Shown here piece after piece: positions 3,566-30,078 of a DNA stretch of 34,223 nt; position 1 is the first letter of the stretch, and each line of letters opens with the position of its first letter. This stretch comes from Phycisphaeraceae bacterium. GTDB lineage: Bacteria > Planctomycetota > Phycisphaerae > Phycisphaerales > UBA1924. The position numbers and the translations under genes were made by a program. The stretch lies in contig BQJQ01000009.1 in the NCBI GenBank assembly GCA_021604785.1, forward strand, positions 1 to 34,223. The letters run 5' to 3'. A model generated the notes under the pieces. The model was not told the origin of the DNA. It searched no databases and saw only the letters and a list, made by a program, of their open reading frames with translations.

Positions 3566-4945
3566 ATGGAAGAACAACCGGGCGGTGTGGTCGATGAAGT
3601 CTGTGATCCGCGGGAGCTGTTGGAGCTCATGAGGGCGGGTGATCAGGGCGCGGTCCTGGCGGTGTTGGATCGGATGGGCACCGCGGACGAGGTGCTGGCG
3701 TTTTCGCGCCTGCCCGAGGACGCCCGGGGCGAGTTGCTCCTGCTCATGGGCCCCGAACGGGCGGCGGATCTGATCCAGGCGCTGCCCGAGCCGCTGGCGT
3801 CGGACGCGTTCGAGGCGCTCGAGCCGGCCGACGCGGCGCGGATTCTCGAGCGGATGCCTAGCAACGAGCAGGCGGATGTCATCGGCGAGCTGGATGACGA
3901 TGACGCCGGGGCGATCATCGGGCACCTGAGCGAAGAGGACGCGCACGAGATGCGGCGCCTCGTGGCGTACCCCGACGACGTCGCGGGTGGGCTGATGGTG
4001 ACGGAGTACCTGTCATACGCCGTGAACGCGCGTGTGGCCGAGGTCATCGAGGACCTGGGCACGAACGCGGAGGAGTACGCGCACTACGACATCCAATATG
4101 CCTACGTGACCGATGAGCACGGCGGCTTGGTCGGCGTGCTCCGCATGCGGGACCTTCTGCTGGCGCCGAGGAACAAGCCACTCCGCGACGTGATGATCCC
4201 CAGCCCGGTGTCGGTGGGGGACCACGACCCGCTCGAGCGGCTGGTCCGGTTTTTCGACGAGAACCGGTTCTTTGGCGTGCCCGTGCTCGATGACACGGGC
4301 GCGTTGTGCGGCGTGGTCCACCGTGTGGCCGTCGAAACGGCGGTCGCCGAGCACGGAGACCGGATGTACCTGAGTGCGCAGGGCATCGTCGGCGGCGAGG
4401 AGCTGCGGTCGATGCCGCTGCTGCTGCGCGCCCGGCGCCGGCTGTCGTGGCTCAGCGTGAACATCGTGCTCAACATGGTCGCTGCGAGCGTGATCGCGAT
4501 GCACCAGGACACGCTTGAGGCGGTCATCGCGTTGGCCGTCTTCCTGCCCATCATCTCGGACATGAGCGGGTGCTCGGGGAATCAGGCGGTCGCGGTGAGC
4601 ATGCGCGAGCTGACACTGGGCGTGGTGCGCCCGACCGAGATCGCTCGGACGGTTCTCGCGGAAGTCTCGGTGGGGCTGATCAACGGGCTGGTGCTGGGGC
4701 TCCTGCTCGGTGTCGTCGCGTTGGTGTGGAAGGGGAACCCGTACCTCGGCATGGTCGTGGGGGGGGCGTTGATGCTCAACACGGTCGTCGCGGTGGTAAT
4801 CGGGGGGGCCGTGCCGCTGGTGCTCAAGCGGGCGAAGGTGGACCCGGCGATCGCGGCGGGGCCGATCCTCACGACCGTCACCGACATGTGCGGGTTCTTC
4901 ATCGTCCTGACGTTCGCGTCGTCGATGCTCTCTCGGCTCACTTGA
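3566..4945 (+). CDS. mgtE: MgtE-family magnesium transporter
   Basis: Protein of 459 aa, the normal MgtE length. Residues 15-130 form the acidic helical N domain (repeated LxxLP/DA motifs, ERMPSNEQADVIGELDDDD). Residues about 131-260 are two CBS domains (DVAGGLMVTEYLS, then DVMIPSPVSVGDHDPL). Residues about 290-459 hold five membrane helices. The last helices carry GPILTTVTDMCGFF, whose Asp440 matches the pore Asp that binds Mg2+ in MgtE. The N and CBS domains normally sense cytoplasmic Mg2+ and close the pore. The segment before TM3 reads SDMSGCSGNQAVAV, unlike the more common GMGGNAGTQS version. ATG 3566 places the N domain correctly; a longer frame to 3425 adds 47 residues of non-domain sequence. 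No Mg2+ riboswitch is evident upstream. Confidence 0.93.
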   Translation: MEEQPGGVVDEVCDPRELLELMRAGDQGAVLAVLDRMGTADEVLAFSRLPEDARGELLLLMGPERAADLIQALPEPLASDAFEALEPADAARILERMPSNEQADVIGELDDDDAGAIIGHLSEEDAHEMRRLVAYPDDVAGGLMVTEYLSYAVNARVAEVIEDLGTNAEEYAHYDIQYAYVTDEHGGLVGVLRMRDLLLAPRNKPLRDVMIPSPVSVGDHDPLERLVRFFDENRFFGVPVLDDTGALCGVVHRVAVETAVAEHGDRMYLSAQGIVGGEELRSMPLLLRARRRLSWLSVNIVLNMVAASVIAMHQDTLEAVIALAVFLPIISDMSGCSGNQAVAVSMRELTLGVVRPTEIARTVLAEVSVGLINGLVLGLLLGVVALVWKGNPYLGMVVGGALMLNTVVAVVIGGAVPLVLKRAKVDPAIAAGPILTTVTDMCGFFIVLTFASSMLSRLT

Positions 4946-4957
4946 GCGCGGCGGCGG

Positions 4958-5953
4958 TCAGCGTTCCGACGCTTCGGTGGGCAGGCCCACGGTGAACGCC
5001 CGCGGCTCGAACGCGTCGAGCGTGAACTGTTCCTGCTGGCCCGGCCAGTGCAGCGTCATGGTGCGCGCGGCGGGGCGGTATTCCGCGACGTACAGCGTCC
5101 CCGACGCGTGGGCGTAGTTGTGCTGCCAGAGCGGGGGACGGAGGAAGGCGCCCAACGCGTCGGCTGCGGACGCGGGCCCGGCGGTGAGCGATTCGAGCTC
5201 GGCGAGACGCTCGACGCTCTGCGTGTGCTGGCAGTACGCGGGCCAGTCCACCGTGGATTGGTGGTTGCTCGAAGCCCGGCGGGTGACGAACCGCGTCGGC
5301 ACGTCCGGACCGGTGTAGGCGGTGACGAACGCCCCGGACGCGTCGGCGATCACGAACGTGTAAGGCATGTAGACCGGGACGCGGGCGAGCGCATCCTTCG
5401 CATCATCCACGGTGGCGCAGGTCTCGAGGATGTACCGGGTGACGAGGGGTGCTGCGAACCCGGGGCCCAGGGCGTCGCGCCCGCCGAAGGCGAGGGCGAT
5501 GGCGAGCCCGTGATCGTTGATGCCGTCGAGGGCGCCCCAGAGGCAGTCGGCCATCGCGAGCGTCGGGCGACCGAGCCAGGCGCTGCGGAGGACGAGGTCG
5601 TCGAGCAGCGCCGGGTGGTGGTCGTAGCTGCGAAGGAGGACGGGGCCGTCGTCATCGAGGACGATCTGCGAGCACCCGCGCACGACGCGCGGCGGATTGT
5701 AGAGGGAGAGGAACGTCGCGATGGCATCCCCGCCGCCGAACGCCTCGAGCAGCCGTTCGTAGACCGGGAACAGCTCGGGCATGTGGGCGCGGATCTGCGC
5801 GGCGCCGCCGATCTCCGGCGGAGGGCTCGCGCGGCGCATCCACCGCCGGTACGCGGGCCAATACTCGGCAAAAACGCTCGCGAGCGCGGCGCCGGCAGGG
5901 TCGTCGTTGATGGCCCGGAACGCGATGGCCGTCGGGATGGCGCGCCCTGTCAT
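4958..5953 (-). CDS. C45-type Ntn-hydrolase / acyl-CoA:6-APA acyltransferase-like
   Basis: Protein of 331 aa. Its core resembles the C45 (isopenicillin N acyltransferase-like) and choloylglycine hydrolase branch of Ntn-hydrolases. Cys94 in VVRGCSQIVL is the likely nucleophile, followed by a strand and LLRSYDHHP at the usual NxD position. Then come ALDGINDHGLAIALAFGG, the family's GmNexGL-like loop, and ASSNHQS further on. In this family the Cys may need to be freed by self-cleavage of the preceding residues, here about 93. Members cut or transfer linear amide bonds. It is the last gene of the six-gene operon and its ATG overlaps the stop of the ATP-grasp gene (ATGA), so the two products are probably made in similar amounts. 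The substrate is inferred to be an amide made by its neighbours. Only 12 nt separate its stop from the convergent mgtE. Confidence 0.78.
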   Translation of the reverse strand: MTGRAIPTAIAFRAINDDPAGAALASVFAEYWPAYRRWMRRASPPPEIGGAAQIRAHMPELFPVYERLLEAFGGGDAIATFLSLYNPPRVVRGCSQIVLDDDGPVLLRSYDHHPALLDDLVLRSAWLGRPTLAMADCLWGALDGINDHGLAIALAFGGRDALGPGFAAPLVTRYILETCATVDDAKDALARVPVYMPYTFVIADASGAFVTAYTGPDVPTRFVTRRASSNHQSTVDWPAYCQHTQSVERLAELESLTAGPASAADALGAFLRPPLWQHNYAHASGTLYVAEYRPAARTMTLHWPGQQEQFTLDAFEPRAFTVGLPTEASER

Positions 5954-7503
5954 AGCAGCTTGAACCCGCCGGGCTCGACGCCGGCGTCGATGCTCTGCGC
6001 GGGGGCGACGGGGGTGCCGGCGTAGTGCGATTGGATGCCGTGCGTCCAAGCCTTGGCGCGCTCGGTGAGGTCGAAGTTGTCGGTCATGAACCGCCCGGGG
6101 CTGACGAGGATGCCCAGGTCCGCGCCGTTGTAGAGGTAGTCGCCCTCGCCGGAGATGCGGAGGAAGAAGGCGCGGTTTTCGTGCTGCACGGTGCGCCGGT
6201 GCGTCTGCATGCGGACATGGCGGATCTGCCCCGACCCGTCGATCTCCCAGAGCCCCGAGGGCGGGGCGGCGGTAATGTGCTTCACGTCGTCGCCCGTGTA
6301 CTTCATGACCAGCTGCGACCAAGAGTCGATATTCTCCGGGTCCGACCAGCGTGTGTTGAGATCATCGACGTCGTAGTCGGACTTGATGCCCATCCATTCG
6401 AGCAGGTGGAACAGGAACAGCGGCGCGTCCGCGTGGGCGAACGACGAGAGGTTGGTCATCGAGCTGGCGCCGGTGATCCGCGGGTTGCACTCGCCCAGGT
6501 AGACTTTGCCCGCGTCGAGATCGGTGAGGAAATCGAGCTCGAAGTACCCGCGGTACCCCTGCGCTGCGAGCCCGTCGCCAAATTTCATGGCGGCGTCGCG
6601 GGCCTTCTTGCGGGTCTTGGCGTCGAACGCGCCCGCGAAGACCTCGTTGCCGCACCACCCGCCGCGGTACGGGGTGAGTTCTTTGAACCCGACGAGCTCG
6701 GTCATGAGCGGCCCGACGATGGTGCCGTTGGATGTCACGCACGCTTCGAGCGCCGCGCCGCGGCAGCGGATCCGCTTCATCACCTTGACCTCGGGCGCCT
6801 CGGTGATGTCCGCGGCATGCTTCTCGAAGTCGGCCTCATTGGAGACGAAGAAGGTTGTGTGCCCCGAGTCGCCGTAGGCGGTCTGAATGACCAGGTCGTC
6901 GCCCAGTTTGGCGGTCGCCTTGCGCAAGGCCTTGTACGAATCGATCTTCGCGAGCACGTTGGGCACGGACTTCACGCCCGCCCGGTCCGCGATGCGGGTC
7001 GTCTCGACCTTGTCGTCGATCGCGTTGCGGAGTGCGGCGGTCGGGAAGCAGACCTCGAGCCCGAGCTCCTTGCAGAGTGCCTCGGTCTTCTCATCGAACA
7101 TCAGGAAGACGGCTTTGCCCCCCTTGCCGCGTTGCTTGATGAACTCGGCGACCGCCGGGTGCGAGAGAAGGTAGTTGTTGATGTCCTCGATCGAGGTCCA
7201 CGGCTCGTGCTCGATCTCGGGGGGCACAAAGACGTTGGGGTGCTGCCCGTCGAAGCAGTCGATCGCGTTGATGTAGGTGAACCCGCGGACCCACTCGTCC
7301 ATGCCCAGCAGGTTGAACGGGGTGGCGCTGATGAAGTAGACCGGCTCGGTGTTGCGGTAGAAGAAGCGGCGGATGTCCGAGATGCCGCGGAGGCGCCGCT
7401 GGTCGCCGTCGGCGGCGTGGTCGGACGCGAGCGGGCGAGCCCCGGACGCGAGCGACTTGCCCTTCTTGGGGGCGGACTTGGTTGGCGGTCTTCCTGAGCC
7501 CAT
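5950..7503 (-). CDS. ATP-grasp domain protein (probable carboxylate-amine ligase)
   Basis: Protein of 517 aa. After a basic, disordered start (about 40 aa) comes a pre-ATP-grasp domain (EPVYFISATPFNLLGMDEW). The ATP-grasp fold follows: DDKVETTRIADRAGVKSVPN, strand DDLVIQTAYGDSGHTTFFV with the flexible loop, and metal ligands in GYRGYFELDF (about Glu322) and YLGECNPRITG (about Glu338, Asn340). Such proteins are often annotated as biotin carboxylase, but no biotin carrier or carboxyltransferase is nearby. Most stand-alone ATP-grasp enzymes join a carboxylate to an amine through an acyl phosphate. It lies 3 nt after the decarboxylase and overlaps the C45 hydrolase. I infer it ligates the amine made by the operon; the partner acid is unknown. 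A C-terminal region of about 150 aa beyond the core has no motif I can name. Confidence 0.85.
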   Translation of the reverse strand: MGSGRPPTKSAPKKGKSLASGARPLASDHAADGDQRRLRGISDIRRFFYRNTEPVYFISATPFNLLGMDEWVRGFTYINAIDCFDGQHPNVFVPPEIEHEPWTSIEDINNYLLSHPAVAEFIKQRGKGGKAVFLMFDEKTEALCKELGLEVCFPTAALRNAIDDKVETTRIADRAGVKSVPNVLAKIDSYKALRKATAKLGDDLVIQTAYGDSGHTTFFVSNEADFEKHAADITEAPEVKVMKRIRCRGAALEACVTSNGTIVGPLMTELVGFKELTPYRGGWCGNEVFAGAFDAKTRKKARDAAMKFGDGLAAQGYRGYFELDFLTDLDAGKVYLGECNPRITGASSMTNLSSFAHADAPLFLFHLLEWMGIKSDYDVDDLNTRWSDPENIDSWSQLVMKYTGDDVKHITAAPPSGLWEIDGSGQIRHVRMQTHRRTVQHENRAFFLRISGEGDYLYNGADLGILVSPGRFMTDNFDLTERAKAWTHGIQSHYAGTPVAPAQSIDAGVEPGGFKLL

Positions 7504-7506
7504 GGG

Positions 7507-10236
7507 TCACACCCTTTCGGTGTTGGTGGTCGTGAGTTCGCCCGACGAAGCCCGCTCGAGCGCGGCCTCGGTGAAGACGCGGAGACCCTTGACTGGGTCG
7601 TACCCGTGGATCTCCTTGACGTCCAGGGCGAGGAGGTAGGCGATGATCTCCGGGCTGAGCACCTGCCCGGGGACAAGGATCGGGAACCCGGGCGGGTATG
7701 GCGTGACGAAAGCGGCCGAGACGTACTCGTGCCCGTCCTCGATCGTCGCGAGGGTCGCGCGGTCGAGCCCGATGAGATCGATGTTGTTTTCGTCGTAGGC
7801 GAGGAAGTACGCACGCCGGAGGTCGCCCTCGGGCGTGGGGGCGCTGTCGGGCTTGAAGGCGCTGTGGAAGCGGCTGAAGTTGGGCAGCGGCGGGCCCTCG
7901 ATCAGCGAGTCCACCCGGGCCGAGTGGCGGGCGAGCCCCGAGTCGCTCTCGACCGAGAGCCGGTCGGCGATGTCAAGCGAGATCTCGACGAGGACATCGA
8001 CGAGGTAGGCGATGTCTCCGCGGGTGGTGCCGATGTTGGGCATGAACAACGCGGTGTTGCGGGAGGTTTTGTTGATCTGGATGTCGTACTTGTCCATGAG
8101 CAGGTGGCGGAAGGTGTCGCCGTCCATGCCCGTGGCGCCGATGTAGAGCGTCACGCGCGTGGGGTCGAGCGTGAACTCGTCCATGCGGTAGGCGCGGTCG
8201 AGCTGGCCCCACCCGTGCTCGTTGTCGTAGTAGAAGTCCAGGCCCGACGGGCGGTGGTCGTTTGGGATCATGTCCGCCGGGCGGAGGACAGAGAAGAACC
8301 GGGCGATGTCCGGGTGCTCGCTGACGCGCTGTCGGAGGGTCATCGCGAGCCCGATGGTCTGCTCGACCATCTCGAACCCCTCGAGCTCGACCTGGCGGCG
8401 CCCGACGTCGAGCGACGCGACGATCTGGTAGTTGGGCGAGGTGGACGTGTGCGTCATGAACGCTTCGTGGAACGAGTCCGATGCCTTCTGCTCGAAGTCC
8501 TCGTCGTAGACGTGGATCATGGAGCCCTGCCGCAGCGACGTGAGCGTTTTGTGCGTCGATTGCGTCGCGTAGACGCGGATGCGGACGCGTTCGGGGTCCA
8601 CCATTGCGTCGGCGTCGCTCGCCTGGGCGTACGTCGCTTTGTATTCCGGCGAGCGGAACCGCGTGCGGAGTCGGCTCGCGGCGTCCATCGCGGTCCGACG
8701 GCGCAGCGTCGGGCTGAACCGGGCGTAGGCGTACCACGCCTCGTCCCACAAGAAAATCATGTCGGGCTTGATCGCGAGCACACGCTCCATGACGCGATCG
8801 GGGTCGTAGGTCAGCCCGTCGAAAGTGCAGTTGGTGAGGATGAGCATCCGCACCTGGTCGAGCTTGCCCGCGGCCTTGAGGTCGAGCAACTGTCGCTCGA
8901 TCTCCTCGAGCGGCACGGCGCCGTACATCGAGTACTGCGGCAGCGCGTACGAATCCAGATAGACCGGCATCGCACCCGCGAGGGCCAGGGCGTAGTGGTG
9001 CGACTTGTGGCAGTCGCGGTCCACCAGCACGATGTCGCCTGGCTGGATCATCGCCTGGGCGACGATCTTGTTGGCCGTGGAGGTGCCGTTGGTGACGAAG
9101 TAGGAGTGCCGTGCCCCGAAGGCTCTGGCCGCGCTGTCCTGCGCCTTCTTGATCGGGCCGCGGGGCTGGAGGAGCGAGTCGAGCCCGCCGCTGGTCGCCG
9201 ACGTCTCGGCCATGAAGATGTTGGGCCCGTAGAAGTCGAGCAGGTCCTTGGCCCAGTGCCCGCTGCTCATCGACTTGCCGCGGGCGATGGGCAGGGCGTG
9301 GAAGACGCCCGTGGGCTTGGCGCTGTACTTGCGCAGCGCGTCGAAGAAGGGCGCCTCGAACCGCGAGCGGACACCCTTGAGGATGCTCAGGTGCTGCTCC
9401 ATGTGCTGCTCGAGCCGGTAGAAAACGCGTCGGAAGTTCGTGCCGTGGTTGCCGGCGACGCGGTCGAGCGGCGCGTCGGTGACGAGGAACAGGTCGATCT
9501 CCGGGCGCAGCCGCTTGATCTGCTTGGCGAGCTCGACGCTGCGGTCGAGCCCGAAGCACGTCGGCATCGCGTCGGTTGTCAGGACGTCGAGGTACCGGCT
9601 CAGGGCCGGGTCCTGGTGCTCCGTGCGGAACGCGTAGTTGTACCGTAGGAAGACGGTTTGGATCGTCCAGTTGAACTGCACCGCGATCAACGCGTCTTCG
9701 AGCGAGGGGACGGTGAGGAGCTCGTAGACGAATTCGTCGGTGTCCCGCCGGCAGGCGCGGAGCCCGTCGCGGAGTTCTTCGTGGTCGTACCCGTCGATGC
9801 CGTCCACGACGAGGACCTCGAAGTACGGCTTGCCGGTCTTCGTATGCTTGCCCGGCGCGTCCTTGCGTGCGTCGGCGAGCTGGTCCGCGTGGGTCGCCGC
9901 TTCGAGGCTCGCGTTGCGCTGGCGGTATGCGTCGCCCACGAGGAGGCGGGCGAGCTCGCGCGCTTCGTTGGCAAGGTCGGCGTAGGCCCCGTGCTCAAGC
10001 AGCGCTGTCAGCTTCGCCATGCGGCCAAGCCCGGGGAACGCCCAGAACGACTCGAACGTGCGCAGCCTCGCGAGACTCTCGGCGACCAGCGCCCGGGGCT
10101 CGGTCAGGTCCCGCTTCTCGCGGCTGAACTCCTTGAGCCAGGCGCACCGCGACTGGAAATCGTTCCATGTGTCGAGGCGCAGCTGCGGCGCGCTGTACGG
10201 TCCCGGCGGCGGTGTATGGGAGCTGGCTTTCGTCAT
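7507..10236 (-). CDS. PLP-dependent Lys/Orn/Arg decarboxylase (fold I, AdiA/LdcI type)
   Basis: Protein of 909 aa, clearly longer than the about 710-760 aa of bacterial inducible decarboxylases. Residues 140-300 look like the receiver-like wing domain (EVLVVDGIDGYDHEELRDGL). The PLP domain runs from about 310 to 700: SATSGGLDSLLQP, YFVTNGTSTANKI, DRDCHKSHHYAL, FLWDEAWYAYARFSP (the counterpart of DSAWVPYxxFSP in lysine and ornithine decarboxylases), and ATQSTHKTL, whose Lys (about 563) binds PLP. A C-terminal domain follows. The first about 140 residues are an extra helical region. The enzyme should remove CO2 from arginine, lysine or ornithine to give agmatine, cadaverine or putrescine; which one cannot be read from sequence. 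ATG 10236 overlaps the nitrilase stop as TGATG; GTG 10239 is also possible. Confidence 0.92.
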   Translation of the reverse strand: MTKASSHTPPPGPYSAPQLRLDTWNDFQSRCAWLKEFSREKRDLTEPRALVAESLARLRTFESFWAFPGLGRMAKLTALLEHGAYADLANEARELARLLVGDAYRQRNASLEAATHADQLADARKDAPGKHTKTGKPYFEVLVVDGIDGYDHEELRDGLRACRRDTDEFVYELLTVPSLEDALIAVQFNWTIQTVFLRYNYAFRTEHQDPALSRYLDVLTTDAMPTCFGLDRSVELAKQIKRLRPEIDLFLVTDAPLDRVAGNHGTNFRRVFYRLEQHMEQHLSILKGVRSRFEAPFFDALRKYSAKPTGVFHALPIARGKSMSSGHWAKDLLDFYGPNIFMAETSATSGGLDSLLQPRGPIKKAQDSAARAFGARHSYFVTNGTSTANKIVAQAMIQPGDIVLVDRDCHKSHHYALALAGAMPVYLDSYALPQYSMYGAVPLEEIERQLLDLKAAGKLDQVRMLILTNCTFDGLTYDPDRVMERVLAIKPDMIFLWDEAWYAYARFSPTLRRRTAMDAASRLRTRFRSPEYKATYAQASDADAMVDPERVRIRVYATQSTHKTLTSLRQGSMIHVYDEDFEQKASDSFHEAFMTHTSTSPNYQIVASLDVGRRQVELEGFEMVEQTIGLAMTLRQRVSEHPDIARFFSVLRPADMIPNDHRPSGLDFYYDNEHGWGQLDRAYRMDEFTLDPTRVTLYIGATGMDGDTFRHLLMDKYDIQINKTSRNTALFMPNIGTTRGDIAYLVDVLVEISLDIADRLSVESDSGLARHSARVDSLIEGPPLPNFSRFHSAFKPDSAPTPEGDLRRAYFLAYDENNIDLIGLDRATLATIEDGHEYVSAAFVTPYPPGFPILVPGQVLSPEIIAYLLALDVKEIHGYDPVKGLRVFTEAALERASSGELTTTNTERV

Positions 10237-11204
10237 CACGCGTTCCCCGCCGCCGGGGGAGGCGCGCCCAGGCCGTGACCGGTCACGGGTGCGGGCACGG
10301 CGGGTGATTCGACCGGGTCAGCGTCTGATGGGCCGGCGATGCCCGCGCGGGAGCCGCGGGCCATTTTTTCAAGCGGCCCGAGCGAGTCGAGGTACGCCGC
10401 GACGCCCGATACGCGGTCGTAGACGGGGAAGTCCACGACGCGGTCACGGAAGCTTTTGAGCGGCTGACCGAGCCCCTTGAGCCCGACCTCGCGCGAGCGA
10501 CGGACCCGGTCAAGGTCGAGCTCGATCGGGAGCATCTCCTCGTTGCTGCCGGCCTGGTAGAGCACATCGCCCGTGGGGGAGACGAGCAGGGACCGCCCGT
10601 TGCCGCCGTCGCCGATGCCGTTGATGTCGATGACGTAACACTGGTTCATCGCGGCGGTGGCGCGGACGATCGAGAGCTCGACGTCGCGGTCGATGCTGCC
10701 GGTCAGGGTGGGATGGAGGATCACCTCGGCGCCCATCGCGGCGAGGGTGCGGGAGGTCTCGGGCATCCACATGTCGTAGCAGATGCTCACGCCGAACCGC
10801 CCGACGTCGGGGACGTCGAAGACGCAGAACTCGGTGCCCGACTCGACACCCGTCTCGTATGGCATGAACGGGAACATTTTGCGGAAGCGAGCGATCACCT
10901 CGCCGGCGGGGTTGATGACCGGGGCGGTGTTGTAGATCCCGCCCGAGGTCTGTTCGTAGAGGGAGCCTGGGATGAGCCAGATGGAGTGCTTGGCCGCGAG
11001 CCGGCGGTAGGTCTCTTCGACCTCGCTTGGCAAGGGGACGGCGTTGCCGGTCCACCCGCCGAATGTTGCGAGTTCGCTCACCAGCACCATCTGCACCCAG
11101 GGGTACAGGTGCATGAGCATCTCGATGCGGTCGCAGATATGGGGGAGATTGGATTGGCGTCCGGAGATGTTGAGCTGGAGGCCGGCGACGGCGAACGGAT
11201 GCAT
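10236..11204 (-). CDS. carbon-nitrogen hydrolase (nitrilase superfamily)
   Basis: Protein of 322 aa with the Glu-Lys-Cys triad of the nitrilase superfamily: Glu44 in LVSELATFGG, Lys109 in ARFRKMFPF, and Cys142 in VSICYDMWMPE. It opens with VAGLQLN, the usual first strand. Members hydrolyse amides, carbamoyl groups or nitriles; those in polyamine routes include N-carbamoylputrescine amidase (AguB) and 5-aminovaleramidase (DavA). The preceding residues in VSICYD are typical of aliphatic amidases, but they do not fix the substrate. A Pro/Ala-rich tail of about 35 residues is probably disordered. ATG 11204 has AAGGG 7 nt upstream and lies 4 nt after the aminotransferase stop. Its place between aminotransferase and decarboxylase suggests it works on an amine-derived amide. 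Confidence 0.9.
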   Translation of the reverse strand: MHPFAVAGLQLNISGRQSNLPHICDRIEMLMHLYPWVQMVLVSELATFGGWTGNAVPLPSEVEETYRRLAAKHSIWLIPGSLYEQTSGGIYNTAPVINPAGEVIARFRKMFPFMPYETGVESGTEFCVFDVPDVGRFGVSICYDMWMPETSRTLAAMGAEVILHPTLTGSIDRDVELSIVRATAAMNQCYVIDINGIGDGGNGRSLLVSPTGDVLYQAGSNEEMLPIELDLDRVRRSREVGLKGLGQPLKSFRDRVVDFPVYDRVSGVAAYLDSLGPLEKMARGSRAGIAGPSDADPVESPAVPAPVTGHGLGAPPPAAGNA

Positions 11205-11208
11205 GGGG

Positions 11209-12531
11209 TTACCCTTCAGAGCCGGCGCGGGCCGGCTGCTTGGTGTGCGCAGAGATCGCGTTGTCGAGGATATCAAGCCCGCGTTCGAGGTCCGCGTCGG
11301 AGATGACGAGCGGGGCGAGGACGCGGATGACGTTGCCATCCACGCCGGCGGGGATGACGATCAGCCCGTTGTCGCGGCAGGTCGCGACGATGCTCTTAGT
11401 CAGCGCTGCGTCCGGGGTCGCGGGGTCGCCGTTGCGTGAGAACTCGATCGCCATCATGGCGCCGAGCCCGCGGACGTCGGTGACCTCGGGCACGCGGGAG
11501 GCGATCGCCTCGAACCGCTCGCGGATGCGGGTGCCCGAGTGCTCGCCGCGGGCGTTGAGGCCGAGGGATTCCATTTGACGGATGGTGGCGAGCGCGCCGG
11601 CGCAGGCGACGGGGTTGCCGCCGTAGGTTCCGCCGAGGGTGCCCGGGGTGACGCGGTCCATGACCTCGGCCTTGCCGAGGACGGCGGAGATGGGCAGCCC
11701 GCCGCCCAGAGACTTGGCCCACGTCGAGAGGTCGGGCGTGACGCCGTAGTGCTCGTACGCCGCCCAGCGCCCGGTGCGCCCGAAGCCGGTCTGGACCTCG
11801 TCAAAGATGAGCATGATGCCGTGCTCGTCGCAGATCTCGCGGAGCCCGCGGACGTACTCGGGCGGCGCGACGTTGAACCCGCCCTCGCCCTGGACGAGCT
11901 CGATGATGATCGCCGCGACGTTACCCGGCGCGACCGTGTCGTGCAGTGCTGCACGCAGGCGCGTCAGCTCACGCTGCGAGACGTCGTGCTCGCTGCCGCC
12001 GCGGTGCTGGCGAACGAGCGGGTATGGCAGGCGGTAGACCTCGGGCGCGAAGGGCCCGCACCCGATCTTGTAGCTCACCTTTGAAGTCAGCGATGTCGCG
12101 AGCAACGTCCGTCCGTGGAACGCGCCGGTGAAGCAGATCACCCCGGCCCGCCCGGTCGCTTGGCGCGCGATCTTGATCGCGTTCTCGACGGCCTCGGCCC
12201 CGGTGTTGACCAGCAGCGCCTTGGTGCTCGGGCCGTGCGGGAGCAGCTCGACGAGCTTCTCGCATAGCGCGACGTAGGGCTCATACGTCGCGACATGGAT
12301 GCTCGCGTGCAGCAGCTCGCCCGCCTGCTCGCGGATTGCGCGAACTACCTGCTCATCGCAGTGCCCGACGTTCATGACGCCGATGCCGCCGGCGAAGTCG
12401 ATGAACGCGCGCCCGACGAGGTCGGTGACCGTCGCCCCGTGCGCGCTGGCGACCGTGAGGTCGGACATGCGGCCAACCCCCTGGCACACGACCCGCTCGC
12501 GCCGCCGGATAAGCTCGTCGCTGCTGGACAT
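11209..12531 (-). CDS. gabT: class III aminotransferase (GABA/putrescine/5-aminovalerate type)
   Basis: Protein of 440 aa with the whole class III pattern: FAGGIGVMNVGHCD near the start, LLVNTGAEAVENAIKIAR, CFTGAFHGRT, IIIELVQGEGG, LIFDEVQTGFGRTG with the PLP-binding Asp (about 244), and LSTWAKSLGGGLPISAV with the Schiff-base Lys (about 273), then TPGTLGGTYGGNPVACA. This is the GabT/DavT/PuuE group of omega-amino acid or diamine aminotransferases, which pass the amino group to 2-oxoglutarate. The next enzyme encoded is a semialdehyde dehydrogenase, so an omega-amino acid such as GABA or 5-aminovalerate is the likely substrate. I chose ATG 12531, which has AGGAG 7-8 nt upstream; GTG 12561, 1 nt from the preceding stop, would add 10 residues. 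The symbol reflects the family, not a proven substrate. Confidence 0.92.
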   Translation of the reverse strand: MSSSDELIRRRERVVCQGVGRMSDLTVASAHGATVTDLVGRAFIDFAGGIGVMNVGHCDEQVVRAIREQAGELLHASIHVATYEPYVALCEKLVELLPHGPSTKALLVNTGAEAVENAIKIARQATGRAGVICFTGAFHGRTLLATSLTSKVSYKIGCGPFAPEVYRLPYPLVRQHRGGSEHDVSQRELTRLRAALHDTVAPGNVAAIIIELVQGEGGFNVAPPEYVRGLREICDEHGIMLIFDEVQTGFGRTGRWAAYEHYGVTPDLSTWAKSLGGGLPISAVLGKAEVMDRVTPGTLGGTYGGNPVACAGALATIRQMESLGLNARGEHSGTRIRERFEAIASRVPEVTDVRGLGAMMAIEFSRNGDPATPDAALTKSIVATCRDNGLIVIPAGVDGNVIRVLAPLVISDADLERGLDILDNAISAHTKQPARAGSEG

Positions 12532-12562
12532 CCCTCGCTCCTGAATGGGTTCTGCTGTCACG

Positions 12563-13996
12563 TCAGAGCTGCCACGAGACGTATTTGATCTCGGTGTACT
12601 CGTCCATCGCGTACTTCCCGCCCTCGCGTCCGAAGCCGGAATGCTTGACGCCGCCGAATGGGGCCTGGGCGGTCGAGGGCCCGCCGTCGTTGGCGCCGAC
12701 GATGCCGTACTCGAGCGCCTCGGCGACGCGCATCAGGCGCGAGGCGTCGCGGGTAAAGTAGTACGCGGCCAACCCGTACTCGGACGCGTTGGCCAGCTCG
12801 ATCGCCTCGCGCTCTGCGGTGAACCGGGCGACCGGGGCGACCGGGCCGAAGGTCTCTTCGCTCGCAAGCTTCATATCAGGCGTCATGCCCTCAACAAGAG
12901 TGGGGGCGTAGAAGCGGTTCGCCAGGCCCTTGGGGTGCACGCGATCGCCGCCCACGGGCACCGTGGCGCCGTGCGAGCGGGCGTCCTCGACGTGCGACTC
13001 GACCTTCTCGACCGCGGCGTCGTTGATGAGCGGGCCGATGTCCACGCCTTCGTGCGCGCCGTCGCCGACGGTGAGCTTCGAGACCGCCTCGGTGAACCCC
13101 GCCACGAACTCGTCGTAGACGCCATCCTGCACGTAGAACCGATTGGCGCAGATGCACGTTTGCCCGGCGTTGCGGAACTTGCACGCGACGGCAGCCGCGA
13201 CCGCCTTGCCCACGTCCGCGTCGTCGAAGACCAGGAACGGCGCGTGCCCGCCCAGCTCGAGCGACAGGCGGAGCAGGTGCTCGGACGCCTTGGACATGAG
13301 CAGCTGCCCAACCCTGGTCGAGCCGGTGAACGAGAGCTTGCGGACCCGGTCGTCGTCGAACAGGGCGTCGCCGATGGTCGCCGCGTCGCCCGTGACGATG
13401 TTGACCACCCCGTCGGGGATGCCCGCTTCGCAGGCGAGCTCGCCGATCGCCAGCGCCGAGAGGGGGGTCAGCTCGGCGGGCTTGATGACAACAGTGCACC
13501 CCGCGGCCAGGGCGGGCCCGAGCTTGCGGGTGATCATCGCCGCGGGGAAGTTCCAGGGCGTAATGATTCCCGTGACGCCCACGGGCTGGCGGAGGACGAG
13601 GATCCGTTTGTCGGGCGCCGACGCGGGGATGATGTCCCCCGTCAGACGTTTGCCCTCCTCGGCGGCCCAGCTCAGGAACGACGCGGCGTACGCGATCTCG
13701 CCGCGGGCCTCCGCGAGCGGCTTGCCCTGCTCAGCCGTCATCAGGGCCGCCAGCCGGTCCGTGTCCCGCCGCATGAGCCCGGCGAGGGCGGACAGCAGCC
13801 CGCCCCGCTCGCCGGCGGTCTTGGCGGCCCACGACTCGCGCGCCCGCCAGGCCGCGTCGATCGCCGACCGGGTCTCCGCCGCGCCAACGGAGGCGACCTC
13901 GGCGATGACCTCATCCCGCGCCGGATTGGTCACGCGGAGGGTCGCTCCGTCCGAGGCTCCGACCCAGGCACCGTCGATCAGGTTGTGTGTTTGCAC
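12563..13996 (-). CDS. gabD: NAD(P)-dependent semialdehyde dehydrogenase (succinate/glutarate semialdehyde type)
   Basis: Protein of 477 aa, full aldehyde dehydrogenase length. Visible signatures are ITPWNFPAAMITRKLGPAL (Asn about 149 of the oxyanion hole), CTVVIKPAELTP, LSFTGSTRVGQ, LSLELGGHAPFLVF (Glu about 247) and FRNAGQTCICANRFYVQ (catalytic Cys about 281), plus SEETFGPVAPVARF and the closing APFGGVKHSGFGREGGKYAMDEYTE. These match the GabD/DavD group that oxidises succinate or glutarate semialdehyde. It is the first gene of the six-gene operon. I chose GTG 13996 because the family starts at about QTHNLIDGAWV and GAAGG lies just upstream; the TTG at 14026 has no site. The spacing is short (about 4 nt). 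The call as class is secure; the chain length of the substrate is not. Confidence 0.93.
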   Translation of the reverse strand: MQTHNLIDGAWVGASDGATLRVTNPARDEVIAEVASVGAAETRSAIDAAWRARESWAAKTAGERGGLLSALAGLMRRDTDRLAALMTAEQGKPLAEARGEIAYAASFLSWAAEEGKRLTGDIIPASAPDKRILVLRQPVGVTGIITPWNFPAAMITRKLGPALAAGCTVVIKPAELTPLSALAIGELACEAGIPDGVVNIVTGDAATIGDALFDDDRVRKLSFTGSTRVGQLLMSKASEHLLRLSLELGGHAPFLVFDDADVGKAVAAAVACKFRNAGQTCICANRFYVQDGVYDEFVAGFTEAVSKLTVGDGAHEGVDIGPLINDAAVEKVESHVEDARSHGATVPVGGDRVHPKGLANRFYAPTLVEGMTPDMKLASEETFGPVAPVARFTAEREAIELANASEYGLAAYYFTRDASRLMRVAEALEYGIVGANDGGPSTAQAPFGGVKHSGFGREGGKYAMDEYTEIKYVSWQL

Positions 13997-14061
13997 GTGT
14001 CCTTCTTTAGCGGTACCCGACGCCAATCCACACCGTGATCACCTACCGCCAAGGCTCCAAG

Positions 14062-14090
14062 AGCATAGGCAGAATTCCCGACGTCGTGAA
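14062..14090 (-). promoter_or_regulatory. predicted promoter of the six-gene amine operon
   Basis: On the minus strand, TTCACG (14085-14090) and TATGCT (14062-14067) are separated by 17 nt, each matching 4 of 6 consensus bases. Transcription would start near 14055 and give a leader of about 60 nt before GTG 13996. The rest of 13997-14216 holds no gene I can support. The same TATGCT hexamer serves as the predicted -10 of the arsR operon. Confidence 0.4.
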
Positions 14091-14216
14091 CGCTTCGTGT
14101 TCGCCGGTTCGCCGATCAGGCGTTCTTCCGGGCGCCGTCGGTGAGCGGAAAGGTCCTGGTGTGTCAGGCTCCGAACCAGTCCCTTGCCGGCTTGATGGCC
14201 CGGCGAAGAACCGCGA

Positions 14217-14618
14217 TCAGCCCACCGCAGCCGCGCCCGCGGATGCGACCGCGTGGTCGTTCTCGACGGTGCTGCCCGAGACCCCGATCGCTCCGATGAC
14301 ATTCCCGCTGGCGTCCTTGATCGGGACGCCGCCCGGGAACGTGATCAGCCCGCCGTTGGAGTGCTCGATCCCGTAGAGCGACCCGCCGGGCTGGCTGAGC
14401 CCGCCGATCACGCCCGTGTCCATGTCAAACCCGCGCGCGGTCCGGGCCTTCTTGATCGAGATATCGATCGACCCCAGCCACGCGCTGTCTTCGCGCGCAA
14501 ACGCGACGAGGTTCATACCCGCGTCTACAACGGCGATGTTCATTTTGGTTTCAGCTTTGCCCGAGTGCGCGACCGCCGCCGCGATCGCCTTCTGTGCCTG
14601 TGCAAGCGTGATGCTCAT
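14217..14618 (-). CDS. GlcG/HbpS-family protein
   Basis: Protein of 133 aa matching the GlcG/HbpS (DUF336) fold along its whole length: [18 protein letters not shown], then [36 protein letters not shown], the glycine-rich [20 protein letters not shown] and [19 protein letters not shown]. Family members bind haem or cobalamin-related ligands or sit in glycolate and propanediol operons; many have no known role. There is no signal peptide, so it should be cytoplasmic. GGAG lies 9 nt before the ATG. It follows the NTF2-like gene by 140 nt and precedes the amine operon with its own predicted promoter, so a link to that operon is uncertain. Confidence 0.9.
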
Positions 14619-14758
14619 GGTCTCTGCTCCGGTCCGGGTTCATGCCGCGGCGTGCTTCGGCCGCTCCGGGAGCGTAGCAGGGAGACCCGATGGTGCCACT
14701 CGGTGGTTCCGGAGAACAGATGGCGAAAGCGCCGCGGCCTGGGTGCGGGGGCACCCCG

Positions 14759-26740: not shown

Positions 26741-27829
26741 TTATCGATCGGCTGGGAGCGCCGCTGCGAGCGCGGCGATCTGGTCGGGCGTGTGGGCGGC
26801 GGTCGCGGTGGCGCGGAAGTAGCGGGGGGCCGGGCCTGAGGGGTATTCGATCAGCGGGACATCGAGCCCGGCGGCGAGGAGGGCGCCCCGCAGGGCGGTC
26901 ATCCGGGCGTCGTCGCGATCCCAAAACGCGAAGATGGGTGTCGATTCGTCCGTGGGGCCGAATCCGGCGTCGTTGATGGCTCGGTCGAGCAGGCGGGCGT
27001 TGGCGCGCATCCGCTCGCGCCGTACGGGCTCGTCGGCGTTGACGGCGAGTGCTTCGCGGGCCGCGGCGATCAGCGGCGGGGGCGTGGGCGTGGTGCAGAC
27101 GTAGGTGCTCTGCGAACGTGTTCGTTCGACCAGTTCTCCGTCGGCGATGACGGCCCCGCCGGCGCATCCGAGTCCCTTGGCCAGCGTCGTGGTCATCACG
27201 ACTCGGCCGGCGGGCGCCAGGCCCGCGTGGTTCAGCGTGCCCTGGCCCGAATCGCCCAGCACCATGAACCCGTGGCAGTCATCGACCAGCAGCGAGCAGT
27301 GCTCAGTGGGCAGGGCGTCGAGCAGGGCCCGGACCGGGGCGCGTGAGCCGTCGGCGGTGAAGACGCCGTCGGTCGCGAGCACGACCGGACCGCTGGCGGA
27401 CCGGGCGACGCGGGCGGCGTCTTCGGGGTCGAGGTGGGCGAACGTCCGCACGGGCAGCCCCGCGGCTTCGGCGGCGAGGAAGAGCGACCGGTGGGCCCTC
27501 TCGTCGAGCACCGCGCTGCGGACACGCATCGCCAGGGCCTGCATCGCGGCGATGTTCGCCGTCAGCCCATCCAACAGGAGCACGGACGCCTGGGCATCGA
27601 GGAACCGGGCGAGGTCGGCTTCGAGCCCCCGGTGCTCGGGGGTGTCGCCCGTAGTGGTGCGGCTGGCCGAGGTGCTCAGGCCGTATCGCGCGGCGGCGGC
27701 GGTGGCGGCTTCGATGACGCGGGGGTGGCGGGAGAGACCCAGGTAGTCGCACCCGCCGAAGACGACCGGGGTGGTGCCCGCCGGGCAGGTGCGGGTCGTG
27801 GTCGGGTCGGTGGCGAGAATTGGGTTCAT
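26741..27829 (-). CDS. alpha-oxoamine synthase-family enzyme (BioF/KBL-like), short form
   Basis: Protein of 362 aa in PLP fold type I. Visible are CDYLGLSRHPRVIEAATAAA (for the usual SNDYLGL), STSASRTTTGDTPEHRGLE, DERAHRSLFLAAEAAG, the DEAHG equivalent VDDCHGFMVLGDSGQG (Asp183, His186), and TTTLAKGLGCAGGAVI with the PLP Lys218. Members condense an amino acid with an acyl-CoA, as in 8-amino-7-oxononanoate synthase or 2-amino-3-ketobutyrate ligase. It lacks about 30-40 residues at the N-terminus found in BioF and Kbl. No other biotin gene is in the window, so bioF is not assigned; a threonine-aldolase-like or lyase role is possible. It precedes a K+ channel gene with a 25-nt gap, a pairing that explains nothing obvious. 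Confidence 0.82.
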   Translation of the reverse strand: MNPILATDPTTTRTCPAGTTPVVFGGCDYLGLSRHPRVIEAATAAAARYGLSTSASRTTTGDTPEHRGLEADLARFLDAQASVLLLDGLTANIAAMQALAMRVRSAVLDERAHRSLFLAAEAAGLPVRTFAHLDPEDAARVARSASGPVVLATDGVFTADGSRAPVRALLDALPTEHCSLLVDDCHGFMVLGDSGQGTLNHAGLAPAGRVVMTTTLAKGLGCAGGAVIADGELVERTRSQSTYVCTTPTPPPLIAAAREALAVNADEPVRRERMRANARLLDRAINDAGFGPTDESTPIFAFWDRDDARMTALRGALLAAGLDVPLIEYPSGPAPRYFRATATAAHTPDQIAALAAALPADR

Positions 27830-27869
27830 CTTCGTGGATTATCGTCAGAACTGGGCGGAGGCGTTCGGT

Positions 27870-27889
27870 TTGGTGGTGCCCCCCACCAA
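27870..27889. repeat. inverted repeat upstream of the oxoamine-synthase-like gene
   Basis: TTGGTGG (27870-27876) and CCACCAA (27883-27889) form a perfect 7-bp inverted repeat with a 6-nt centre, 41 nt upstream of the minus-strand start codon at 27829. The position suits an operator. A second repeat, CCCGGGC and GCCCGGG (27948-27964), lies nearer the divergent binding-protein gene. Confidence 0.4.
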
Positions 27890-27897
27890 GGGCGCGT

Positions 27898-27926
27898 TTG
27901 TAGGCGGGGGCGGGCACCGGTAGGAT
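27898..27926 (+). promoter_or_regulatory. weak promoter candidate for the peptide importer operon
   Basis: TTGTAG (27898-27903) and TAGGAT (27921-27926) are 17 nt apart, with 3 and 4 consensus matches. Transcription would start near 27933, about 70 nt before the binding-protein ATG, and the leader would include the CCCGGGC/GCCCGGG hairpin (27948-27964). The evidence is thin; the spacing is the best part of it. Confidence 0.25.
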
Positions 27927-28003
27927 CCCCCCACGGTGCCGAGGGTACCCGGGCGCCGCCCGGGCGGTCGCGGTCCGCGTCAGAGTCGCATCAGGAGGCT
28001 GCC

Positions 28004-30028
28004 ATGAGCGTTGTTCGAGCATTGGGTCGGGTGTGTGGGTGTGCGGTGCTGGCCGTCGCGGTCGGGACGGCATCGGCGCAGGAGAAGGTCGCCCAGTTGC
28101 CAATTCGGACCGACGGGCCCAAGAGCCTGGACCCGGTCGTGGGCTCGACGGTGTACGACAACATGGCGTGCGCGCAGATCTACGAGACACTGCTGGTGAA
28201 CAAGTACGCCAAGCCGACGGAGAAGGAGCCGCTGCTGCTCGCCGAGATGCCGGTGAGCGAAGACGGCGGCAAGACCTGGAGCCTGAAGCTCAAGCCCGGC
28301 GTGCTCTTCCACGACAACGCGTGCTTCACAAAGACGAAGGGCAAGGGTCGCGAGCTTGTGACGGACGATGTGTTCTACTCGTTCAAGCGTCTCGCGGACG
28401 CGGCGTACGAACTCGAGAGTTGGTGGCTGCTCAAGGACACGGTTGAGGGGTTCGACGAGTTCAAGCGGATCCAGAACTGGCGCGGCTCGATGCCCGAGCG
28501 GGCGTCGTGGCTGAGCAACCAGAGCCCCGAGACGTTCAAGAAGACGCTGTTCGACCGCGAGCTGAAAAACCGGCTCGATACCGCGCTCAAGGACAAGGAC
28601 GAGGATGAGGTCGCGGAGATCACGCGGAAGATCACCGAGCAGTTCAACAAGGACCTGACGCCCGCGGACCTCGACACGCTCGCGGCGGAATTCGCGAACC
28701 AGCCCGCGGCGACCTTTGAAGCGGCGGAGTTCGACTACGCCGCCCCGGTCGCGGGGTACCGCAAGATCAACGACTACGAGTTCGAGATCGAGCTCGTGGC
28801 CCCGGTGACGCGGTTCGAGTGGGTCCTGACGATGTTCCAGACGTCGATCGTGGCGCGTGAAGCAGTCGAGAAGTACGGCGACGATTTCTTCCGCAACCCG
28901 GTCGGCACAGGGCCGTTCATGCTTGAGTCGTGGACGCCCAAGAAGGACCTGCATCTCGTCCGCAACCCGAACTACCACGAGGTGATGTACCCCGAGCGGG
29001 GCGAGTGGGATCGGCCCGATCAGCGGAACCGTCTGCACCGCGCCGCGGGCCAGCAGGTGCCGTTCCTGGACCGGATCGAGTTCACGATGTACGCGCAGGA
29101 CCAGCCGATGTGGCTGCAGTTTGAGGCCGGGCGGATCGGGTACACGCAGGTTCCCGACGAGTACTTCCCGCAGGCGTTCGACAAGCGGACCAAGGAGCTT
29201 CTGCCGTCGGTCGCGGCCCGGGGCATCCGCGGGCACGCGAACAAGCTGCTCGACTTCATCTTCCGTGGGTTCAACATGGACGACGAGCTTGTCGGCGGGT
29301 ACGGGCCCAAGAAGAAGGCGCTGCGCCAAGCCATCAGCCTCGCGGTGGACCTCAACGAGTTCAATGAGACGTTCTACTCCGGGCTCAACGTTGTCTATGA
29401 CGGCCCGATCCCCCCGGGGCTCGACGGGTACCCAGAGGGCGGCACGTCGTCCGCCGCGTACCAGGGTCCGAACCTGGACCTGGCGCGAAGCAAGCTCGCC
29501 GAAGCCGGTTACCCGGACGGCGAGGGGCTGCCCCCGATCAAGTTCTACACCCAGAACGGCGGCAACTCGCCCGAGCAGACCGAGCTGCTCCAACGCCAGC
29601 TCTCCCGCATCGGCGTCGAGCTCGACGTGCAGCTCGTGGACTTCTCCACGCTCATCGACGCGGTGAACAAGAAGAACGCCGCGATGTTCAGCTTCGCGTG
29701 GTCGAGCGACTACCCGGACGGCGAGAACAACCTCGCCCTCTTCTACGGCCCCAACGAGGCCCCTGGGGCGAATCACTACAACTACAAGCGGGACGACTAC
29801 GACGAGATGTACGAGCAGATCCTGACCATGCCCGCCGGCGATGAGCGCACGGCGATCATGGTCGAGATGCGGGACATGATCCTCGAGGACGTGCCCTACG
29901 TCGGGTCCATGGCCCGCGAGCGGCACTACGTGATCAACCCGTGGCTGCTGAACTGCAAGCCGACCGAGCGGTATTACGCGTGGTTCAAGTTCCTGGATGT
30001 GGACGATTCGAAGCGCCCTGAACGTTGA
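28004..30028 (+). CDS. peptide-type ABC transporter substrate-binding protein
   Basis: Protein of 674 aa with a Sec signal peptide (VLAVAVGTASA, cleavage near 25/26), exported and not lipidated. It matches the DppA/OppA family (SBP_bac_5): LPIRTDGPKSLDPVVGSTVY, WSLKLKPGVLFHD, ELVTDDVFYSFKRLAD, NPVGTGPFMLESW, then ALRQAISLAVDLNEF and AEAGYPDGEGLPPIKFYTQN. OppA-type proteins are usually 520-560 aa. The extra length is mainly a charged helical stretch at about 148-250 (many Lys, Glu and Asp) between the usual ADAAYELESWW and GYRKINDYEFEIEL parts. Family members capture peptides or other solutes. AGGAGG is 5 nt before the ATG. It is the first gene of an importer operon, with a 50-nt gap to the permease. 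The ligand is unknown. Confidence 0.93.
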   Translation: MSVVRALGRVCGCAVLAVAVGTASAQEKVAQLPIRTDGPKSLDPVVGSTVYDNMACAQIYETLLVNKYAKPTEKEPLLLAEMPVSEDGGKTWSLKLKPGVLFHDNACFTKTKGKGRELVTDDVFYSFKRLADAAYELESWWLLKDTVEGFDEFKRIQNWRGSMPERASWLSNQSPETFKKTLFDRELKNRLDTALKDKDEDEVAEITRKITEQFNKDLTPADLDTLAAEFANQPAATFEAAEFDYAAPVAGYRKINDYEFEIELVAPVTRFEWVLTMFQTSIVAREAVEKYGDDFFRNPVGTGPFMLESWTPKKDLHLVRNPNYHEVMYPERGEWDRPDQRNRLHRAAGQQVPFLDRIEFTMYAQDQPMWLQFEAGRIGYTQVPDEYFPQAFDKRTKELLPSVAARGIRGHANKLLDFIFRGFNMDDELVGGYGPKKKALRQAISLAVDLNEFNETFYSGLNVVYDGPIPPGLDGYPEGGTSSAAYQGPNLDLARSKLAEAGYPDGEGLPPIKFYTQNGGNSPEQTELLQRQLSRIGVELDVQLVDFSTLIDAVNKKNAAMFSFAWSSDYPDGENNLALFYGPNEAPGANHYNYKRDDYDEMYEQILTMPAGDERTAIMVEMRDMILEDVPYVGSMARERHYVINPWLLNCKPTERYYAWFKFLDVDDSKRPER

Positions 30029-30078
30029 ACGTTCGGCGTGCTACGCTGATGCCCGCGACCCCGGAGGCTTGATCGCGC

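Follow-up and report, generated by a model that had tools for sequence, protein, structure and literature searches.

A conserved bacterial gene cassette with an ATP-grasp enzyme and a C45 hydrolase, and its proposed role in basic amino acid catabolism

Which reaction sequence would require a decarboxylase, an ATP-grasp enzyme and two putative amide hydrolases to be encoded side by side with a transaminase and a dehydrogenase? The question is raised by a six-gene operon of a Phycisphaeraceae bacterium (Planctomycetota; assembly GCA_021604785.1, 2.87 Mb in 273 contigs, estimated 88% complete), located on contig C9 (BQJQ01000009.1), of which positions 1 to 34,223 are the stretch analysed here and called the window. 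Four of the six genes recur together in distant bacteria, and we conclude with high confidence that they form one dedicated, conserved cassette. For its function, the reading that we prefer, and consider evenly balanced between right and wrong, is a catabolic one: a basic amino acid, most likely L-arginine, would be converted to the C4 omega-amino acid 4-aminobutyrate (GABA) and then to succinate, by way of an amide that is first made and then cut.

The operon and its recurrence

Inspection of the open reading frames (ORFs), with the proteins re-derived, places six genes in a minus-strand run from 13996 to 4958:

12563..13996, minus strand: aldehyde dehydrogenase, succinate-semialdehyde-dehydrogenase (GabD)-like, accessory; GTG start; PF00171, 568.2 bits
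11209..12531, minus strand: class III aminotransferase, GABA-transaminase-like, accessory; start at ATG 12531 or GTG 12561; PF00202, 406.2 bits
10236..11204, minus strand: carbon-nitrogen hydrolase (nitrilase superfamily), core; PF00795, 115 bits
7507..10239, minus strand: long Orn/Lys/Arg decarboxylase, Rv2531c type, core; 910 aa; PF01276, 268.8 bits
5950..7503, minus strand: ATP-grasp ligase, family PRK06524, core; 517 aa; Pfam CPSase_L_D2-type domain
4958..5953, minus strand: C45 autoproteolytic N-terminal nucleophile (Ntn) acyltransferase/hydrolase, core; 331 aa; Pfam AAT (C45) family

The junction between dehydrogenase and aminotransferase measures 31 nt from ATG 12531 or 1 nt from GTG 12561, and the remaining junctions are, in order, a gap of 4 nt, a 4-nt overlap, a gap of 3 nt and a 4-nt overlap. 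Pfam results are consistent with the family given for each of the six proteins and, together with the ORF coordinates, confirm the same-strand arrangement and spacing described in an earlier note on this DNA. The one promoter candidate of that note was not recovered, as a consensus scan of positions 4700-14700, confined to the sigma-70 type, gave 0 promoter-like sites against 0.8 expected in shuffles.

An alignment of the ATP-grasp protein was scanned against 84,980 species genomes and gave at least 542 matches (E up to 1e-3). The best 80 of the 542, plasmid records and planctomycete genomes together gave 97 distinct loci (L042, L050, L051 and L052 are identical to other loci and were left out); being drawn from the best 80 of 542, the named loci lean towards relatives of the window protein. 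Genes were scored as directly adjacent when on the same strand, with the C45 start at -60 to 400 nt and the decarboxylase end within 500 nt. The core order that emerged is nitrilase-like protein, Rv2531c-type decarboxylase, PRK06524 ATP-grasp protein and C45 Ntn-hydrolase. The ATP-grasp gene is followed directly by the C45 gene in 89 of 96 testable loci and preceded directly by the decarboxylase gene in 84 of 96. In 68 of 85, a nitrilase gene stands no more than 4.8 kb upstream on the same strand. All six genes occur in the order of the window in 20 of the 97 loci. By submitter titles the carriers span eight phyla, with the four-gene core in seven; in the eighth, Eisenbacteria, three of the four core genes are visible and the contig begins inside the decarboxylase. 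The dedicated system proposed in the earlier note is therefore supported by the neighbourhood search, since the core order recurs far outside this genome.

Co-occurrence tells the same story. Among 294 planctomycete genomes, 15 carry the ATP-grasp gene (14 over the family cut-off, and G118 at 610 bits), and the decarboxylase is present in the same 15 and in one more (ATP-grasp alone, 0; decarboxylase alone, 1). The C45 subfamily occurs in 14 of the 15 and in two genomes with only a partial ATP-grasp gene, as fragments inside a contig in G016 and as a partial copy at a contig start in G036. Fisher p values range from 3e-24 to 5e-20, uncorrected for kinship, with the 15 carriers falling in 9 families. 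Pairwise distances of ATP-grasp protein and decarboxylase are correlated over 63 loci (r 0.797, best of 1000 permutations 0.106), and the weakest correlation within the core is that of C45 and nitrilase (r 0.30); this comparison left out the four identical loci, L053, L133 and any locus in which one of the four genes was missing or not full-length. Chance adjacency is ruled out by the recurrent gene order together with the co-occurrence.

The cassette is rare but spread. A wider draw covered 369 genomes of the class to which Thiofilum belongs (E 1e-100) and 337 of that of Marivibrio (E 1e-60), with a match in 9 genomes of each class. It yielded 17 loci (decarboxylase in 14, C45 in 16, nitrilase in 10), or 16 distinct ones, L149 duplicating L080, with the decarboxylase in 13, C45 in 15 and nitrilase in 9, several contigs being cut short. 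With about 100 loci covered here and at least 542 ATP-grasp matches, carriers are probably more numerous. On a quickly searched tree of the ATP-grasp proteins, whose only branch support is the Shimodaira-Hasegawa-like approximate likelihood ratio test (SH-aLRT), the phylum label would have to change 13 times, against a minimum of 7; this is suggestive of transfer, and the figure is affected by binning and by labels taken from submitter titles.

Some individual loci deserve mention. In G016 an open C45 frame stands beside the two ATP-grasp fragments (C148:25999-27406), apparently a decaying cassette copy, and the planctomycete G207 has a near full-length relative (46%) of the decarboxylase (C1:211049-213736) but, at the thresholds applied, neither an ATP-grasp nor a C45 partner. 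One Rhizobium leguminosarum plasmid (L035:5252-12477, NZ_CP016290.1) has the decarboxylase, ATP-grasp and C45 genes next to nifHDK, and an ABC transporter and an amidase come after them. On two other plasmids of this species (L036, L037) the cluster adjoins a Nif11-leader cluster for a ribosomally synthesized and post-translationally modified peptide. In one of these, strain Ta6 (L037:9428-10465), the C45 gene is in pieces and the ATP-grasp frame is open across the match. Four Bacteroidota loci (L095, L113, L126, L134) have a small protein between nitrilase and decarboxylase (for example L126:5137-5565). The mapped copies, those of L095, L126 and L134, are 139-143 aa long. By eye the protein looks glyoxalase-like; for the L095 copy neither Pfam nor NCBIfam gave a match.

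The core enzymes

The decarboxylase scores 268.8 bits with PF01276 (cut-off 27), which assigns it to the Orn/Lys/Arg decarboxylases of fold type I. The lysine expected to bind pyridoxal phosphate (K564, in STHK) and the motif WDEAW (498-502) are invariant in 22 of 22 aligned decarboxylases. Residues 19-899, N-terminal extension included, are collinear with residues 24-906 of the chain 9n0n (805.5 bits, E 4.9e-241), and 9n0o likewise gives 805.5 bits. PDB 9N0O is Rv2531c of the tuberculosis bacterium, cited in a 2026 review as an amino acid decarboxylase of unresolved activity (PMC12910592), and Rv2531c is thus a near full-length collinear homologue of the operon enzyme; a literature search on the code 9N0N returned nothing relevant. 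Both PF01276 and the 9n0n match agree with the amine-producing decarboxylase of the earlier note, which would be one for basic amino acids. Its sequence DEAWYAYA is also the motif of the arginine decarboxylase chain 6q6i, whereas two lysine decarboxylase chains have DSAW at this site, in printed alignments that ornithine decarboxylases fall outside. The motif only suggests arginine as the substrate.

The ATP-grasp protein belongs to PRK06524, with 741.2 bits against NF005096 (cut-off 684). All five annotated plasmid records opened (behind L032 and L034-L037) call it "biotin carboxylase", and no biotin carrier gene is annotated in the stretches shown of those records. Foldseek ranked biotin carboxylases nearest to its AlphaFold model (pLDDT 88.0). 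A second fold comparison gave Z 23.0 both for PylC (317 residues, root-mean-square deviation (rmsd) 4.2, 9% identity) and for biotin carboxylase (rmsd 4.0 over 383 residues), with PurK-type enzymes reaching up to 22.8. This tie means that the fold does not settle between ligase and carboxylase. The proteins share the stretch E-x-N-P-R-x-T-G-A-S-x-x-T-N, aligned by eye, in which T308 is found in 35 of 36 rows (one has C) and G309 and A310 in all 36. Biotin carboxylase of Escherichia coli has Q-V-E after its E-x-N-x-R motif, serving bicarbonate, and T-G-A in that place would favour a carboxylate-amine ligase. The annotated function is weakened by the altered bicarbonate motif and by the lack of a biotin-carrier domain among the six genes, although the sequence and Foldseek rankings and the fold tie remain. 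A biotin-independent, PurK-like carboxylase is a further candidate; it would N-carboxylate a guanidino or amino group that the amidases later free. The three-way tie and the first rank of biotin carboxylases by Foldseek and sequence speak for such an enzyme, T-G-A in the place of Q-V-E speaks against it, and we consider it highly improbable.

The C45 protein scores 133.2 bits with NF040521 (cut-off 85). Its nucleophile C94, at the autocleavage site, is invariant in 30 of 30 proteins, and its model (pLDDT 92.5) matches isopenicillin N acyltransferase in fold (Z 29.4 over 299 residues, rmsd 3.1). From its family it is predicted to cleave itself into two chains. A bacterial C45 enzyme, AzsT, takes off an N-succinyl group (PMC10445470), which offers a precedent by analogy for deprotection by an enzyme of this kind.

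In the nitrilase-like protein the Glu-Lys-Cys triad (E44, K109, C142) is invariant in 23 of 23 aligned proteins. N-carbamoylputrescine amidase (AguB) was rejected as its identity (TIGR03381, 76.9 bits, cut-off 410.25). The agmatine-deiminase family PF04371 occurs in only 4 of 14 carrier genomes, including the window genome, which has two matches. Nitrilase was not seen at 20 of the 97 loci, many of them on short contigs. An amidase-signature enzyme is nearby instead at L081, L104, L153 and the Rhizobium loci L035 and L036; no relative of the L081 amidase was found at L075, L086, L094 and L127, which also have no nitrilase. This pattern, with the amidase-signature stand-ins, makes a role as small-amide hydrolase plausible.

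Arginine as candidate input and GABA as candidate product

Loci of Thiothrix, Thiofilum and Shinella have no operon decarboxylase and keep the trio of nitrilase, ATP-grasp and C45 genes. The proteins encoded next to the trio include a 2-ketoarginine decarboxylase, which in Thiothrix scores 754.9 bits (cut-off 500), together with four other enzymes, namely a racemase, a D-amino-acid dehydrogenase, an aldehyde dehydrogenase and a ureohydrolase of the agmatinase family, and an amino acid permease. We take this set, from family knowledge, to lead from arginine through D-arginine, 2-ketoarginine, guanidinobutyraldehyde and guanidinobutyrate to GABA. On the ATP-grasp tree these 2-ketoarginine loci fall into two groups, both with decarboxylase-bearing relatives close by, which suggests two separate swaps; alternatively, one 2-ketoarginine gene set may have been passed on. 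Three genomes without the decarboxylase at the fetched locus have no close relative of it genome-wide, whereas 6 of 6 others have one (one of the three, Plasticicumulans, has its locus at a contig end, and the search did not extend to the Shinella genome). All three have a 2-ketoarginine decarboxylase over the cut-off. In addition, a ureohydrolase of the same subfamily (48-61%) flanks the decarboxylase-bearing clusters L150, L122 and L172. Because the gene set stands in for the decarboxylase, and because of the ureohydrolase linkage, the gene content favours arginine over lysine as the probable starting compound. The ureohydrolase was dropped as a fixed partner: arginase-family proteins are present in 12 of 14 planctomycete carriers, but the neighbouring subfamily has no close relative there. 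Thiothrix eikelboomii also encodes a 621-aa protein (L088:15555-17417) with an ornithine-racemase-like N-terminal part (389.7 bits, cut-off 480) and an arginase-like C-terminal part (78.7 bits), with a 51% relative in Shinella (L034).

The same data bear on an alternative in which the decarboxylase is oxidative and turns arginine into 4-guanidinobutyramide, which the nitrilase or amidase would hydrolyse to 4-guanidinobutyrate and a ureohydrolase convert to GABA, with GABA-T and SSADH as the last two enzymes and the ATP-grasp and C45 enzymes wrapping the ureohydrolase step or serving a side branch. It fits the position of the nitrilase immediately before the decarboxylase in the commonest orders and the amidase-signature enzymes at some loci without nitrilase, as a primary-amide hydrolase would allow, and it would meet the 2-ketoarginine loci at 4-guanidinobutyrate. 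Those loci, however, keep the nitrilase where no such amide is expected, and the four nitrilase-less loci named above have no relative of the L081 amidase. We found no evidence of oxygen chemistry in this decarboxylase family, and the ATP-grasp and C45 enzymes are left unexplained, so that we regard this route as unlikely.

On the product side, the window transaminase scores 488.8 bits with the GABA transaminase (GABA-T) model TIGR00700, below the cut-off of 506.65, and three of four linked transaminases scanned pass it (L150, L129 and L044; L095, at 488.1, does not). The window dehydrogenase scores 636.9 bits with the succinate-semialdehyde dehydrogenase (SSADH) model TIGR01780, below the cut-off of 646.35; among six linked dehydrogenases only that of L150 passes (690.5, GabD-type), and those of L044, L066, L082 and L095 are nearest to the Sad-type SSADH model. 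That SSADH-like proteins of two subfamilies have been recruited suggests succinate semialdehyde as the intermediate, and hence GABA as the product probably handed on. An omega-amino-acid exit by transaminase and dehydrogenase, as claimed in the earlier note, is retained, but its idea that the pair oxidises a conjugate is not: being GABA-T/SSADH-like, the two enzymes would probably act after release.

GabT/GabD-like enzymes serve 5-aminovalerate routes too, and this keeps lysine or ornithine in view as substrates, in a conjugating counterpart of DavT-DavD or Puu that would end in 5-aminovalerate or GABA. A flank survey (16 seed proteins against 114 loci, 113 distinct, which can miss unrelated amidases or transporters) found a PuuR-like regulator at 8 of the 113, consistent with such a route; the single one scored against the PuuR model gave 153.2 bits (cut-off 211). 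Likewise, L115 is adjoined by a glutamine-synthetase-family protein with 185.5 bits against the gamma-glutamylputrescine synthetase model (cut-off 650), which two glutamine synthetase models outscore. With arginine-specific neighbours at two places on the tree, and DEAW shared with an arginine decarboxylase chain, we judge lysine or ornithine distinctly unlikely.

Transport offers a further view. Transporters with a TAXI-type solute-binding protein and a TRAP permease adjoin the core at 7 of the 113 distinct loci (L168, L170, L173, L106, L102, L097 and L128, alpha- or gammaproteobacterial). Other loci have different importers, namely amino acid permeases or, in Rhizobium and Roseobacter, ABC transporters, which the Roseobacter annotation calls dipeptide-type. 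Together with the GABA-T/SSADH-like neighbours, these importers read as catabolism rather than export. The opposite proposal is that the cassette builds an amide from an arginine-derived amine, for secretion or storage, and that the C45 protein is an acyltransferase or a recycling hydrolase. It can appeal to a C45 fold nearest an acyltransferase and to E-64, which is made from epoxysuccinate, an amino acid and agmatine by an ATP-grasp enzyme and an amide bond synthetase (PMC12568646). The importer-like transporters, the degradative character of the GABA-T/SSADH-like neighbours and a spread over phyla that would be unusual for a natural-product cluster make it very unlikely in our view. The window itself also contains, away from the operon, a cytochrome P450 gene (16625-18307) and, at 27434-32660, genes for a family-5 solute-binding protein and a binding-protein-dependent permease.

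In the arginine-to-GABA reading that we prefer, the Rv2531c-type decarboxylase would open the route by stripping the carboxyl group from arginine. The ATP-grasp enzyme would then spend ATP to join a carboxylate to an amine intermediate, giving a soluble amide that the C45 Ntn-hydrolase would cleave, and the nitrilase-like enzyme, or perhaps an amidase-signature enzyme at some loci, would hydrolyse a further amide bond. Freed GABA would be transaminated and oxidised by the neighbouring GABA-T/SSADH-like pair. The substrate, the conjugated acid, the step order and the choice of amide that is made and cut are what we infer here.

Several observations weigh against this route. Only 50 of 81 testable loci have a GABA-T-like gene on either strand within 9 kb, and only 46 of 81 an aldehyde dehydrogenase relative anywhere in the fetched flank. 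The Sad-type dehydrogenases are all under their cut-offs, and that of L118 is nearest to the lactaldehyde dehydrogenase model. The ureohydrolase is adjacent at only 6 of 113 distinct loci, at a threshold of E 1e-20 a relative of it is absent from 4 of 5 planctomycetes tested and from Aequorivita, and the window genome has only a distant one (32%). A 2-ketoarginine decarboxylase exceeds the cut-off in 2 of 6 genomes with the operon decarboxylase, so that a single genome can have both. No C45 gene is present in the fetched stretch of the Bacteroidota loci L095, L098, L131 and L134, biotin carboxylases are nearest to the ATP-grasp protein by sequence and by Foldseek, and none of the core enzymes has an assigned substrate. 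Finally, the 2-ketoarginine loci would reach GABA without the trio, which may therefore act on a parallel amine, or on a conjugate that precedes arginine. Because the trio is kept where arginine could already reach GABA, our confidence in the mechanism is moderate.

Comparison with known systems

If the arginine-to-GABA route is correct, it would be an unnamed nitrogen pathway of many marine and soil bacteria, present also on Rhizobium plasmids, one of them beside nif genes. It would place Rv2531c-type decarboxylases, which have a solved structure but no settled reaction, in a functional setting, and a short list of substrates would then serve to assay the PRK06524 and C45 families. In more general terms, we tentatively propose, at somewhat below even confidence, an undescribed route for basic amino acids in eight phyla (submitter labels), with entry by an Rv2531c-type decarboxylase, in which an amide intermediate is made by an ATP-grasp ligase and cut by a C45 enzyme on either side of a deguanidinating or oxidising step. 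The earlier note knew of no described pathway with this exact set; likewise, our search of the full-text literature found no description of it among the titles and beginnings of abstracts listed, and papers beyond these or in subscription journals could contain one.

The Puu pathway of Escherichia coli, the gamma-glutamylputrescine route, uses ATP to conjugate an acid with an amine and leads to GABA and succinate. The cassette would share both features, and the PuuR-like regulator found at some loci is a further likeness. The two differ in that Puu uses a glutamine-synthetase-like ligase and a class I amidotransferase, whereas the cassette has an ATP-grasp enzyme, a C45 Ntn-hydrolase and a built-in decarboxylase. 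PuuA- and PuuD-type families are not among the six families of the window operon, and a glutamine-synthetase-like protein was found at 1 of 113 distinct loci, in a survey with one seed for it and none for PuuD. Nor do the six families, to which this search was limited, include a flavoprotein such as DavB, the flavin lysine monooxygenase of the DavBATD lysine route. From the analogy to Puu or Dav drawn in the earlier note, the Puu side gains from the regulator and lysine loses ground to arginine, which is favoured, though not exclusively.

Three other systems are close in part. Arginine is converted to GABA and succinate by an oxidase/dehydrogenase route via 2-ketoarginine and 4-guanidinobutyrate (PMC2242806), and a related gene set replaces the decarboxylase at the Thiothrix, Thiofilum and Shinella loci; unlike the cassette, that route, as described there, has no ATP-grasp, C45 or nitrilase-like enzyme. 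PylC, an ATP-grasp ligase for lysine and D-ornithine, has a similar fold, but the identity is low and biotin carboxylase is equally close by Z. AzsT, the C45 peptidase of azaserine biosynthesis, is of the same family as the C45 protein and acts on a carrier-bound natural-product intermediate (PMC10445470), a likeness drawn from its description only. Taken together, the cassette resembles Puu in its conjugate-and-release logic, with a ligase and a hydrolase from other families.

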